Shown here: positions 16,622 to 35,223 of the stretch, piece by piece | Layout: every line of letters begins with the position of its first letter | How positions within the stretch are numbered: position 1 is the stretch's first letter | Origin: Thermicanus aegyptius DSM 12793 | GTDB lineage: Bacteria; Bacillota; Bacilli; Thermicanales; Thermicanaceae | DNA length: 64,000 bases | Assembly: GCF_000510645.1 (NCBI RefSeq) | Contig: NZ_KI783301.1 | Span: 3,239,788-3,303,787, forward strand | Reading direction: 5' to 3' | Program-made: the position numbers and the translations under genes | Notes under the pieces: model-generated | Told to the model about the DNA's origin: nothing | The model's input: the letters and a program-made list of their open reading frames with translations, nothing else | The model's database searches: none

Positions 16622-16697
16622 GAGGGCTACAAAGGTTCAAGGTCAATGAGCATTGCAGTCGATCGGAGTTAAACCGGACAGCGTTAGGAGGATAAAG

Positions 16698-17021
16698 ATG
16701 AACCATTTTACGATCCAATATGATCAAGAGCTCGGTATAGAGGTTCCCCACCTCCATGTTCCCTTTGATCAGCTGGACCAACGGGAAAAGGAAGAACTAT
16801 ACGCCAAAATGGAAGAGATCAGCGGTAAGATCCCGGAACGTATCCGGCAACTGGAACATGAATATAAGGAAATGTACGATCGAGTATCACAGGAAAATTC
16901 CGATCAAACCTTTTTTGATGGAATGGAGCGCCTCAATCAGATCTCACGTTTGATTAGTGAATTAAATATCTTATATCTGCAAATGCAGGGAAAGTACCTT
17001 ACCTCTTATCAAGGCGGCTAA
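16698..17021 (+). CDS. Uncharacterised 107-residue protein, paralogue of the next gene
   Basis: I do not recognise this family. The 107-residue acidic, soluble protein has no signal peptide or membrane segment. It opens MNHFTIQYDQELGIEVPHLH, has a central helical stretch EELYAKMEEISGKIPERI, and ends with a helix ELNILYLQMQGKYLTSY. It aligns without gaps to the protein at 17222-17545, identical at 59 of 107 positions by my hand count. AGGAGG six bases before the ATG fixes the start. Each copy has its own TTGACA promoter, which suggests different control after duplication. A mostly helical adaptor or regulatory protein is possible, but nothing shows its role. Confidence 0.8.
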   Translation: MNHFTIQYDQELGIEVPHLHVPFDQLDQREKEELYAKMEEISGKIPERIRQLEHEYKEMYDRVSQENSDQTFFDGMERLNQISRLISELNILYLQMQGKYLTSYQGG

Positions 17022-17221: not shown

Positions 17222-17545
17222 ATGGAGAAATATGAATTCCACTATGTCGAGGAATTGGGGATTGAGATTCCGCATCTTTACGTTCCTTACGATGAATTAA
17301 GTGAGGATGAAAAGGAAGATCTTCAGGTGAAATTCGAGGAGATTAGCGGTAAGATCCCTGAACGGATCCAAGCTTTAGAAAAGGAGTACCGCGATTCATA
17401 TTATCTCTTTGCAAAAGAGCCTTCTGAAGATGCCTTCTATCATGGAATGGAGTATTTGAACCGACTGTCGCGAAATATTTGCGAGCTTAATATTTTATAT
17501 TTACAAATGCAAGGGAATCATTTGGTCACCTATATCGCCGATTAA
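17222..17545 (+). CDS. Uncharacterised 107-residue protein, second paralogue
   Basis: This is the second member of the pair and has exactly the same length. The best-kept blocks are EISGKIPERI (about residues 40-49) and ELNILYLQMQG (about 88-98). The middle segment differs most, and it has a Cys (NICELN) where the first has Ser. No catalytic motif is seen. The start follows GGGAGG. The gene is followed by a strong terminator that closes the region before the oppositely oriented oxidoreductase genes. Function is unknown. Confidence 0.8.
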   Translation: MEKYEFHYVEELGIEIPHLYVPYDELSEDEKEDLQVKFEEISGKIPERIQALEKEYRDSYYLFAKEPSEDAFYHGMEYLNRLSRNICELNILYLQMQGNHLVTYIAD

Positions 17546-20499: not shown

Positions 20500-20532
20500 A
20501 AGAAAAAAGAGGAGATGGCCTCGCATCTCCTC
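20500..20532 (-). terminator. Terminator after the rhodanese gene
   Basis: GAGGAGATG and CATCTCCTC arms with a six-base loop, followed on the minus strand by TTTTTTC and more T. Confidence 0.85.
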
Positions 20533-20541
20533 CACAAAGCA

Positions 20542-20853
20542 TTAAGCCCCGACCTCAATCTCCCCCGGCCAGTTGAGCATCCCACCCGCGACGTTCACCG
20601 TCTTAAACCCGAGTTGGGACAGATAACGGGCCGCCATGGCGCTCCGGTTGCCGCTGCGGCAGATGATGTAGATTTCCTTCTCTTTATCCAGTTCAACGTA
20701 ACGCCTCGGAATCTCACCCAGGGGAATGTGTATCGCTCCCGGAATATGTTCTGCCAGCCACTCCACCAATTCCCGGACATCAAGGAGATAAATTTCCTCC
20801 CCATTCCTCATCCGTTCATACAGCTCGTCGGCCCAGATTTCTGTAAACGGCAC
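20542..20853 (-). CDS. Single-domain rhodanese (sulfurtransferase)
   Basis: The 103-residue protein is a one-domain rhodanese that would carry a persulfide on Cys65 of the loop CRSGNRS. The fold is complete: LLDVRELVEWLAEHIPGAIHIPLGEI, then IYIICRSGNRSAMAARYLSQLGF and VNVAGGMLNWPG. There is no signal peptide, so it acts in the cytoplasm. The start is GTG at 20853 behind AAGGAG. It has its own promoter with an overlapping ATACCC/GGTAT inverted repeat, like the operators of CsoR-type regulators. The related repressor CstR controls rhodanese genes in Staphylococcus in response to sulfide stress; a similar role is possible here. Confidence 0.92.
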   Translation of the reverse strand: MPFTEIWADELYERMRNGEEIYLLDVRELVEWLAEHIPGAIHIPLGEIPRRYVELDKEKEIYIICRSGNRSAMAARYLSQLGFKTVNVAGGMLNWPGEIEVGA

Positions 20854-20912
20854 CTGTTCATGCTCCTTTCCCTATCGAAGATCAAACTCGCCGGGGTTCT
20901 ATCCATGGATAT

Positions 20913-20955
20913 ATACCCTATATGGTATTTTAAGGCGGATTTCTCCTATTGTCAA
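20913..20955 (-). promoter_or_regulatory. Rhodanese promoter with CsoR/CstR-like operator
   Basis: On the minus strand TTGACA (20955-20950), a 17-base spacer and TAAAAT (20932-20927) form the promoter. An inverted repeat ATACCC-TATAT-GGTAT at 20913-20928 overlaps the -10 and the start of transcription. The copA operator at 29912-29928 has the same half-sites (ATACCC/GGGTAT) with the same five-base spacing. Confidence 0.6.
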
Positions 20956-29876: not shown

Positions 29877-29928
29877 TTGAATTTATACGGCAGACCTTGT
29901 ATAATAAACACATACCCCGTATGGGTAT
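29877..29928 (+). promoter_or_regulatory. copA promoter with CsoR-type operator
   Basis: TTGAAT at 29877-29882, a 17-base spacer and a perfect TATAAT at 29900-29905 form the promoter. An inverted repeat ATACCC-CGTAT-GGGTAT at 29912-29928 covers the transcription start. This matches the known operator type of the copper repressor CsoR, so copA should be released when Cu(I) is bound by CsoR. Confidence 0.85.
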
Positions 29929-30007: not shown

Positions 30008-32401
30008 ATGACTGAGGGAACCAAGCGCATCACCCTCAACATTACCGGCATGACCTGCGCCACGTGCGCGACCCGCGTAGAAAAAAATCTCGGGAAGATC
30101 GAAGGGGTCTCCCTGTCTAATGTAAACTTGGCCAGCGAGAAAGCGACGGTGGTTTATGATCCCGCCAAAACCAACCTGGAGGCTCTCATCCAGCAGGTGC
30201 AAAAGACGGGATACGGTGTGTTGGAAGAGAAAGTGGATCTCATCATTACGGGGATGACCTGCGCGGCGTGTGCCAATCGCGTGGAGAAGGCACTGAAGAA
30301 GGTGGACGGCGTCTTACGTGCCAATGTAAATTTGGCCAGCGAAAAGGCGAGCGTTACCTTCATCCCGGCCCAGACCCAGATCAGCCAACTTGTGGCCGCC
30401 GTAGAAAAAGCGGGATATGGAGCAAAACCTGCCGCAGACGTCTCTCCCCGAACGGAAGAAGAGGAACGGGAAAAGCGGTATCGGAGAGAGTTTAATGCTT
30501 TCCTCTTCGGCGCCATCATCTCTATTCCCTTCCTCCTTCAGATGATCAGCGATTTCTCGGGATATTCCTTTTTTATGATGCCGGGCCCACTTCAGTGGGT
30601 CCTCGCCACCTTGGTTCAGTTTACCATCGGTTGGCGCTTCATCCGAGGGGCTTACAATGCTCTTCGGGGAGGAAGCGCCAATATGGATGTGCTGGTGGCG
30701 TTGGGAACCCTGGCCGCTTATCTTTACAGCACCGTTCTTCTTTTCCTCAATATTCGCCATGGGCTCTATTTTGAGGCCTCGGTCGTGGTGATCACCCTGA
30801 TTATCTTAGGAAAATTGCTGGAAGCCAAAGCAAAGGGAAGAACCTCCAACGCGATCAAGAAACTGATGGGCCTCAAAGCGAAGACGGCACACCTGGTACG
30901 AAATGGTGAAACCGTGGAGATTCCCATCGAGGAAGTGAAGGTGGGAGATCTCCTCCTGGTGAAAGCGGGGGAAAAGGTGCCCGTGGACGGGGAGATCGTT
31001 GAGGGCAGGACCTCCATCGACGAATCGATGCTCACCGGGGAAAGCCTCCCCGTGGAGAAAGGAGTGGGCGATCCCGTCACCGGGGCTACCTTAAATAAAC
31101 ATGGCTCCTTCACGATGAAAGCAACCAGGGTGGGGAGCGAGACGGCCCTCGCCCAGATCATCCGCATGGTGGAAGAAGCGCAAGGGTCAAAAGCGCCGAT
31201 TCAGAGCCTGGCGGATGCCATTTCCGGCGTTTTCGTCCCCATCGTGATCGGCATCGCCCTTGTTACGTTTCTCCTCACCTATTTCTTCGTCGATTTTAAT
31301 GCGGCGCTGATCAGCGCCGTGGCCGTACTCGTCATCGCCTGCCCATGCGCCCTGGGGCTGGCCACGCCTACCGCCATCATGGTGGGGACGGGAAAGGGGG
31401 CGGAACATGGGATCCTGATCCGCAGCGCAGAACACCTGCAGCTGTTAAAAGAGGTGAATGCGGTCGTTCTCGACAAGACGGGAACCATCACGAAAGGTAA
31501 ACCGGAGGTGACGGAGCTCTTTGCCGCCGACGGTGAAGAAGAGGAGCTTCTCCGCCGAGTGGCAAGCGCCGAGCAGGGTTCGGAACACCCCCTGGGAGAG
31601 GCGATCCTGGAACGGGCCCGGGAGAAAAATATTTCCCTCTATCAATTGACCAATTTCGAGGCGATTCCCGGCTATGGGATCCGTGCAACCATAAATGATG
31701 AAGAACTCTTTGTGGGAAATAAAAAACTGATGGATCGGGAAGAAATCCCCTACAGACCCCATCTTTCCCGAATAGAGGAATTGGAGGGGAAGGGAAATAC
31801 GGTCATGATGGCGGGGAAGAAAGGAATCTTCCTGGGATATGTGGCTGTGGCGGATACGGTGAAGGAAACCTCCGCGCAAGCCATACAGGAATTAAAAAAG
31901 ATGGGGATTCAGGTCATCATGATCACCGGGGATAATGCCCGCACGGCGAAGGCGATCGGGGATGAAGTGGGTGTGGATCGCATTCTGGCGGAGGTATTGC
32001 CGGAACACAAAGCCCTGGAAGTGGAGAAGCTGAAGAAGGAGGGGAAGAGGGTGGCGATGGTGGGAGACGGAATTAACGATGCCCCTGCCCTGGCCGCCGC
32101 CGATGTAGGGATCGCCATCGGAACGGGGACCGATGTGGCGATGGAGGCCGCCCCCATCACCCTGATGCGGGGAGACCTGCTTTCCATCGTGGAGAGCATC
32201 CAGCTTTCCCGGGCCACCATGAGGAAAATCTACCAGAACTTTTTCTGGGCGTTCGGATATAATGTGGTCCTTATCCCCGTGGCCGCTTTCGGTCTCTTAA
32301 ACCCTGTCCTGGCCGGGGCGGCCATGGCTATGAGCTCCGTTTCGGTCGTGACCAACACCCTCTTCCTGAACCGTTGGAAACCTCGTCATCAAGGAGCATA
32401 A
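30008..32401 (+). CDS. copA: Copper-exporting P1B-type ATPase
   Basis: This 797-residue membrane ATPase exports Cu(I). Two N-terminal metal-binding domains carry GMTCATC (Cys17 and Cys20) and GMTCAAC (about residue 85). The eight-helix core has the transport motif [13 protein letters not shown], the phosphorylated aspartate in [10 protein letters not shown], the TGE motif in [10 protein letters not shown], the [10 protein letters not shown] histidine of the nucleotide domain, and [18 protein letters not shown]. The true start is the ATG at 30008 behind AGGAGGAGG. The CsoR-type operator lies just upstream. The chaperone CopZ and the repressor CsoR are encoded about 2.2 kb downstream on the other strand. 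Confidence 0.96.
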
Positions 32402-34593: not shown

Positions 34594-34803
34594 TTATGCC
34601 ACAACCTCATACCCTTCCTCAACGATGGTCTCCTCGATCTTCGACCTTGTCGTTACGTTCGGGTCATATTCCACGTCCACTTTTCCTTCTTTCAGGTGAA
34701 CCTTCACAGAGGAGACCCCCGGCAGCTTCCCTACGCTTCCTTCAATGGCCATGACACAATGATGGCAGCTCATACCCTGGACCGTCAGCGTTTCCTTCAC
34801 CAT
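34594..34803 (-). CDS. copZ: Copper chaperone CopZ
   Basis: The 69-residue protein is a single heavy-metal-associated domain that carries Cu(I) to CopA. The binding motif is GMSCHHC (Cys13 and Cys16), with His between the cysteines and the usual GVSSVKVHLKEGKVDVEYDP strand after it. AAGGAGAG precedes the ATG. It lies 72 bases after csoR and is probably transcribed with it, with the long inverted repeat at 34523-34569 as terminator. Confidence 0.93.
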   Translation of the reverse strand: MVKETLTVQGMSCHHCVMAIEGSVGKLPGVSSVKVHLKEGKVDVEYDPNVTTRSKIEETIVEEGYEVVA

Positions 34804-34875
34804 CTCTCATGACTCTCCTTTTCATAAAAATGATACTGCCCCTTTATTATACCATACCCTACTACCGTATACAAT

Positions 34876-35223
34876 CTACTTCATCATCTTGGAGATGGTC
34901 TTCGTAAATTCCTCCACCACCTCCGTCTCTCCATTCTTTAGCCTCTCCAATACACAGGTTTTCATGTGGCTTTCTAACAAGATCCTGGCTACCGCATTTA
35001 AGGCGGATTGGGCGGCGGAGATCTGATTCAGAACATCGTCACAATAAACGTTCCGCTCGATCATTCCTTTAATTCCCCGGATCTGTCCTTCAATCCGATT
35101 CATTCGCTTGGTGAGGTCTTCCTTGATCAATGGGGGGACATGACCCTGGCGGCATCCGGGTCCGCATTGCCCCTCATCACAAGCTTCAAGGTCCTCTTGC
35201 AGGGCCTGTTCATCGATTTCCAT
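34876..35223 (-). CDS. csoR: Copper-sensing repressor CsoR with a Cys-rich N-terminal extension
   Basis: CsoR is an all-helical tetrameric repressor that leaves DNA on binding Cu(I). The ligands are present as Cys61, His86 and Cys90 (VYCDDVLNQ and ESHMKTC), and the RMNRIEGQIRGIKGMIE helix is typical. The copA operator at 29912 is a likely target. Unusually, residues 1-30 form an extension with Cys15, Cys20, Cys24 and His28 (CX4CX3CX3H), which could bind an additional metal; I cannot tell whether it does. The ATG at 35223 follows AAGGAGAG. It heads the csoR-copZ pair. Confidence 0.92.
   Translation of the reverse strand: MEIDEQALQEDLEACDEGQCGPGCRQGHVPPLIKEDLTKRMNRIEGQIRGIKGMIERNVYCDDVLNQISAAQSALNAVARILLESHMKTCVLERLKNGETEVVEEFTKTISKMMK

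Follow-up and report, generated by a model that had tools for sequence, protein, structure and literature searches.

A predicted CstR-type operator at a rhodanese promoter of Thermicanus aegyptius, one base pair shorter than the operator of copA

What controls a small rhodanese gene whose promoter carries a palindrome resembling the operator of copA, with the gene for a copper-type CsoR only 14 kb away? An earlier note on this DNA had read the two operators as identically spaced and had offered two explanations, that the local CsoR also controls a sulfur gene or that a CstR is encoded elsewhere, and it drew from the resemblance a link between copper and sulfur stress. The evidence presented here points to the second explanation: the rhodanese is very probably controlled by a CstR-type repressor, sensing per- and polysulfide and encoded about 0.71 Mb away, with the copper CsoRs reading the one-base-pair-longer site at copA. 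The features on which this reading draws are collected in the table; the window is the whole 64,000-nt stretch that was analysed.

The rhodanese promoter and the copper operators

The palindrome was where it had been described: ATACCC-TATAT-GGTAT overlaps the -10 box of the rhodanese by two bases, and ATACCCTATATGGTAT, its plus-strand reading, is the sole exact match to ATACCC-N5-GGTAT within the window (ATACCATATAGGGTAT on the minus strand). The promoter, TTGACA-17-TAAAAT (20955-20927), is strong and sigma-70-like, with 11 of 12 consensus matches, and from the end of its -10 box the operator extends over the likely start point, a usual place for a repressor. The rhodanese is the lone gene between this promoter and a terminator-like hairpin, both on the minus strand, and a scan of the region around it found two such hairpins where shuffles gave 0.6. 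Elsewhere in the window, two tandem paralogous small proteins of 122 and 107 aa are encoded at 16653-17021 and 17222-17545.

Table. Features of the rhodanese and copper loci in window coordinates, and genes or sites elsewhere in the genome.
Feature	Position	Strand	Basis
Rhodanese, single-domain, 103 aa, GTG start after AGGAG	20542..20853	-	ORF; Pfam PF00581 E 4.6e-21
Predicted CstR-type operator of rhodanese, ATACC-N6-GGTAT (= TAC-N8-GTA), 16 bp	20913..20928	.	exact match; six other genes, cstR among them, preceded by such a site; N6 enrichment in CstR-like loci
-35 hexamer TTGACA of rhodanese	20950..20955	-	consensus match
-10 hexamer TAAAAT of rhodanese; last two bases are the operator's first two	20927..20932	-	consensus match
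Terminator-like hairpin closing the one-gene rhodanese unit	20508..20533	-	hairpin search
Predicted CsoR-type operator of copA, ATACC-N7-GGTAT (= TAC-N9-GTA), ATACCCCGTATGGGTAT	29912..29928	.	exact match; promoter TTGAAT-17-TATAAT just upstream
copA, copper P-type ATPase	30008..32401	+	TIGR01511 E 5e-183, scanned with a longer ORF from 29897; start set at the ATG after AAGGAGGAGG
copZ-like copper chaperone	34594..34803	-	ORF; presumed copZ, read from the sequence
Degenerate N7 site before copZ, ATACGGTAGTAGGGTAT on the minus strand	34854..34870	.	sequence match
csoR, copper type, C-x24-H-x3-C	34876..35223	-	family profile; alignment; tree
N7 site of the second copA	2705561
cstR, 86 aa, with an N6 site of its own	2548720-2548977 (L003 1492-1752; L024 3121-3381)
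N6-linked thioredoxin gene, then PAPS/APS reductase (cysH) and ATP sulfurylase (sat)	L024 3444-5829		convergent with cstR
N6 site before a response regulator gene, followed by a histidine kinase-like ORF	1771992-1772007 (L023)		Response_reg and Trans_reg_C; letters identical to the rhodanese site
N6-linked gene for a metallo-beta-lactamase protein that also has two rhodanese stretches			PF00753, PF00581
N6-linked gene for a protein disulfide oxidoreductase			TIGR02187
N6-linked gene for a DUF302 protein

The identical spacing did not survive a like-for-like count, because the half-sites had been split unevenly (ATACCC/GGTAT at the rhodanese, ATACCC/GGGTAT at copA). With the same half-sites marked in both, the gap is six bases at the rhodanese and seven at copA, whose element begins seven bases past the end of its own TATAAT; sites of the two kinds are called N6 and N7 below. 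The second copA of the genome, which lies outside the window next to copZ and the second csoR, also has an N7 site. In the literature, copper CsoR operators are described, for S. lividans, as TACX9GTA (PMC3902906), and the Staphylococcus aureus copAZ site, ATACCtataGGGGGTAC, and copXL site, as quoted in PMC10233261, both count to N7. Such operators have the half-sites of the rhodanese site with one base pair more between them, and the rhodanese site falls outside their spacing.

Two further observations concern the copper loci and N7 sites. A transposase-like gene, so named from its sequence (L001 2155-3237), is a neighbour of the second csoR-copZ-copA set, and this set may have arrived on mobile DNA. 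Another N7 site, at 2626135-2626151 (L025 3036), lies 68 bp before the gene for a 208-aa protein with a nitrite/sulfite reductase domain, and the promoters of this gene and of the second copA share CAGATGAGTC-A/G-AGCGG.

CsoR-family proteins and operator spacing in other genomes

The genome encodes three CsoR-family proteins (Pfam PF02583, CsoR/RcnR, DUF156; 86.8-87.8 bits against a cut-off of 22.8), of which two are copper CsoRs and the third is a CstR-type paralogue. None of these proteins reached the cut-off of an NCBIfam model, and NCBIfam did not separate CstR from CsoR. In a tree of 100 proteins (40 from the 80 named CstR-like loci, every second one being taken, 28 from the 29 other CstR-like loci, 29 CsoRs and the three of this genome), both copper CsoRs grouped with CsoRs and the third paralogue with the CstR-like proteins, each side at 100/100, although the alignment has few columns and many inner forks are weak. 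The remaining CstR-like locus, L068, yielded no protein and was left out of the protein set. The paralogue has both sensing cysteines, Cys31 and Cys60, which are invariant in the 17 sequences aligned. Its nearest PDB chain is 7mq1, filed as 'csoR', which we take to be the CstR of Streptococcus pneumoniae.

Whether the gap of six or seven is tied to the kind of repressor was read from repressor loci of other genomes, 29 CstR-like and 29 CsoR loci (30 of each fetched, own locus left out), in which exact sites of every spacing from 0 to 14 were counted. The CstR-like loci held nine N6 and five N12 sites and the CsoR loci 16 N7 and two N13 sites, with none of any other spacing in either set, and shuffles of the loci gave at most 0.1 sites for any spacing. 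Judged by names read from the sequences, the genes that follow the N6 sites are cstR, tauE-like and rhodanese genes, and those that follow the N7 sites are csoR, copZ and copA. A further 80 named CstR-like loci contributed 105 N6 sites, spread over 48 of the loci; N7 was absent, and all other spacings from 0 to 14 together gave four sites. When the loci are pooled, the N6 sites amount to 110 distinct contexts, identical ones being counted once. Of the 109 CstR-like loci, 55 contain N6 and none N7; of the 29 CsoR loci, 13 contain N7 and none N6. The p-value of 3e-14 for this split, computed with no correction for kinship, is too strong because some genomes are near relatives, or of the same species in both sets, yet the pattern of N6 against N7 is free of exceptions. 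In the stretches examined, 54 of the 109 CstR-like loci lack an exact N6 site and 16 of the 29 CsoR loci lack any exact site; these loci may have inexact or distant ones. Among the 29 CstR-like loci, the N12 spacing occurs in five from one group of relatives (L070, L071, L072, L078 and L079), in related tauE-like promoters, and overlaps an N6 site in two of them; it is perhaps a doubled or shifted operator.

The neighbouring genes divide in the same way. Within 1.5 kb of the repressor gene, 66 of 109 CstR-like loci have a rhodanese or a metallo-beta-lactamase–rhodanese relative, against none of 29 CsoR loci, and copA is present in two of 109 against 23 of 29. Among 29 rhodanese loci of relatives, a set that shares some members with the CstR-like loci and is to that extent dependent on them, there were 11 N6 sites, no N7 site and one site of another spacing (N11). 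In two loci from the same order, L033 and L048, it is the rhodanese relative's own promoter region that carries the N6 site; in L035 the site lies elsewhere.

In the relatives examined, then, a difference of one base pair sorts sulfur-stress from copper-stress sites, and the rhodanese is therefore most likely under a sulfur-stress repressor. Control by a copper CsoR, whether the local one or both, with copper inducing the rhodanese, could appeal to the shared ATACC and GGTAT half-sites and to the closeness of csoR, but it is highly improbable, and we reject it on spacing, the CsoR loci having 16 N7 sites and no N6. The published operator spacing argues against it too, as do two CsoR-family proteins of Thermus, each of which bound the other's sites little or not at all, a change of one base in spacing either way costing TTHA1953 about 10-15-fold in affinity (PMC10318464). 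The S. aureus CsoR, in addition, is reported to be unresponsive to sulfide stress (PMC5480029). Of the two explanations first offered, it is accordingly the CstR elsewhere that stands, through a paralogue with its clade and an N6 site in its own promoter, while the local CsoR falls away. The link between copper and sulfur stress does not follow from the DNA, because the 29 CsoR loci of other genomes contain N7 sites and no N6; as far as the sequences go, the rhodanese and copA operators look alike as members of one family, their repressors being paralogues. We found no statement of such a one-base-pair rule for CstR and CsoR sites in the open-licence literature, and the founding CstR literature may well contain it already.

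N6 sites across the genome

The whole genome contains eight ATACC-N6-GGTAT sites, and its read-backwards control none. By raw number the excess is only modestly high, since the 16 spacings from 0 to 15 together have 70 sites, or about four per spacing, and an argument from number alone was set aside as weak; the case therefore rests on the position of the sites and on the other genomes. Seven of the eight N6 sites are non-coding, each directly upstream of a gene, against five of 26 control sites (the first 26 listed of other spacings) outside ORFs of at least 160 aa, those five lying in ORFs of 128-158 aa and the other 21 inside the longer ones. Because of this contrast (Fisher p 0.001), the placement of the N6 sites is not due to chance. 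The eighth site, within an amylase-like gene (named from its sequence), is a chance occurrence. That the rhodanese palindrome is likewise a chance one, in the promoter of a constitutive gene, is extremely improbable: about four sites per spacing are present in the genome, but this one sits on a -10 box, shares its promoter position with six of its kind, and recurs at rhodaneses of same-order relatives.

The promoter architecture is shared as well. By consensus matches, the N6 site in both the rhodanese and the thioredoxin promoters has its first two bases within a good -10 hexamer, and a -10-like hexamer overlaps the end of the site at cstR and at the response regulator. Four of the N6-linked genes encode sulfurtransferase or thiol-redox proteins, and the operator appears before sulfurtransferase or persulfide dioxygenase-like genes and before the repressor gene, as would be expected of a CstR-type regulon. 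Gene order and strand suggest that thioredoxin, cysH and sat may form a single transcript. Why a persulfide sensor should repress cysH and sat is not evident at first sight, and placing sulfate assimilation under persulfide control would be strange if thioredoxin were not what matters. Also to be counted against the preferred reading are the response regulator and DUF302 targets, which have no proven sulfur role, the 54 CstR-like loci without an exact N6 site, the site inside the amylase-like gene, and a histidine in the paralogue to which we return below. Even so, we place the rhodanese with good confidence among CstR-regulon genes of a known kind.

Binding, repression and the inducer are carried over from the literature on ScCsoR, YrkD and CstR, and on these precedents the circuit would run as follows. 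In the resting cell, reduced CstR would occupy the 16-bp N6 site over the -10 end and the likely start point and keep RNA polymerase off. A rise in sulfane sulfur would bridge Cys31 and Cys60 of neighbouring protomers through a di-, tri- or polysulfide, and the bridged repressor would leave the DNA, allowing the rhodanese to be made. The metallo-beta-lactamase–rhodanese protein, the thiol-disulfide oxidoreductase, thioredoxin with cysH and sat, the DUF302 protein and more CstR would be co-induced, and the copper CsoRs would read the longer N7 site at copA.

A vague likeness of operators thus becomes a testable rule: within this one repressor family, promoters for copper and for sulfur stress in Bacilli appear to be told apart by a single base pair of spacing between half-sites that are the same, and the rule allows regulons to be called from sequence. 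The predicted CstR regulon that it delineates here is scattered over the chromosome and not gathered in one operon.

A histidine in the CstR-type paralogue, and known systems

The earlier note had pictured the second repressor as a CsoR paralogue lacking the histidine ligand. A CstR-type paralogue was found, but it keeps a histidine, His56, and so departs from what marks CstR-type sensors. At the equivalent position the 80 proteins of the named CstR-like loci have 78 N, one Y and one D, and the 28 others 24 N, three Y and one D, so that none of the 108 CstR-like comparators has His there. His56 restores the HxxxC motif and gives C31-x24-H56-x3-C60, the exact ligand spacing of CsoR. Its codon is CAT, the nearest relatives having TAC or TAT (Tyr). 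A sequencing error in this one genome could also account for it. If the residue is genuine, it would lower the paralogue's standing as a typical CstR, and not its placement in the clade.

His56 therefore leaves room for a copper input at the CstR protein, the sole and barely open route by which a copper-sulfur link survives. The Cu(I) site of CsoR is made of a Cys of one subunit and HxxxC of another, and FrmR acquired metal sensing in cells when a single residue was changed at a different ligand position (PMC4528141). With these precedents and with a histidine absent from all comparators, one may picture a two-input CstR in which His56 re-forms the Cu(I) site and copper and persulfide alike release all N6 sites, the link lying in the protein and not in the DNA. 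This is very unlikely, for the residue before the first Cys is Glu30 where the CsoRs here have Tyr, the single substitution (TAC or TAT to CAT) could be neutral, and the two copper CsoRs would be expected to keep copper below its reach. A broader conjecture, unlikely too, is that the base pair separating N6 from N7 insulates sulfur from copper regulons in those Bacilli that have both CstR and CsoR, and that here the two are bridged on the protein side, by one N6 repressor answering both Cu(I) and persulfide through Cys31, His56 and Cys60, while the DNA code is kept apart. If real, a CstR with a copper ligand set would offer a direct test of what blinds a persulfide sensor to copper.

The CstR-type regulon proposed for the rhodanese has its closest counterparts in three systems. 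The S. aureus CstR is a CsoR paralogue that senses per- and polysulfide and represses sulfurtransferases (PMC5480029); it likely controls a single operon, in contrast to the scattered regulon here. YrkD of Bacillus licheniformis, a CsoR-family sulfane-sulfur repressor that frees its DNA on elemental sulfur (PMC9918477), is like the paralogue in coming from Bacilli and in its two conserved Cys; its targets, unlike those here, lie together in a single cluster of 11 genes that includes sqr, pdo and nreBC. ScCsoR (SCO0620), the sulfane-sulfur sensor of Streptomyces coelicolor, has its site written as ATACCn6GGTAT and binds its own promoter as well as those of a persulfide dioxygenase gene and a rhodanese gene, with both Cys needed for release (PMC7533328). 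It shares with the present system a CsoR-family repressor with two Cys, an N6 site, and a rhodanese and itself as targets; but its targets adjoin the repressor gene, whereas those here lie across the chromosome of a member of the Bacilli, not an actinomycete, and extend beyond them to thioredoxin with cysH and sat, the DUF302 protein and the response regulator.
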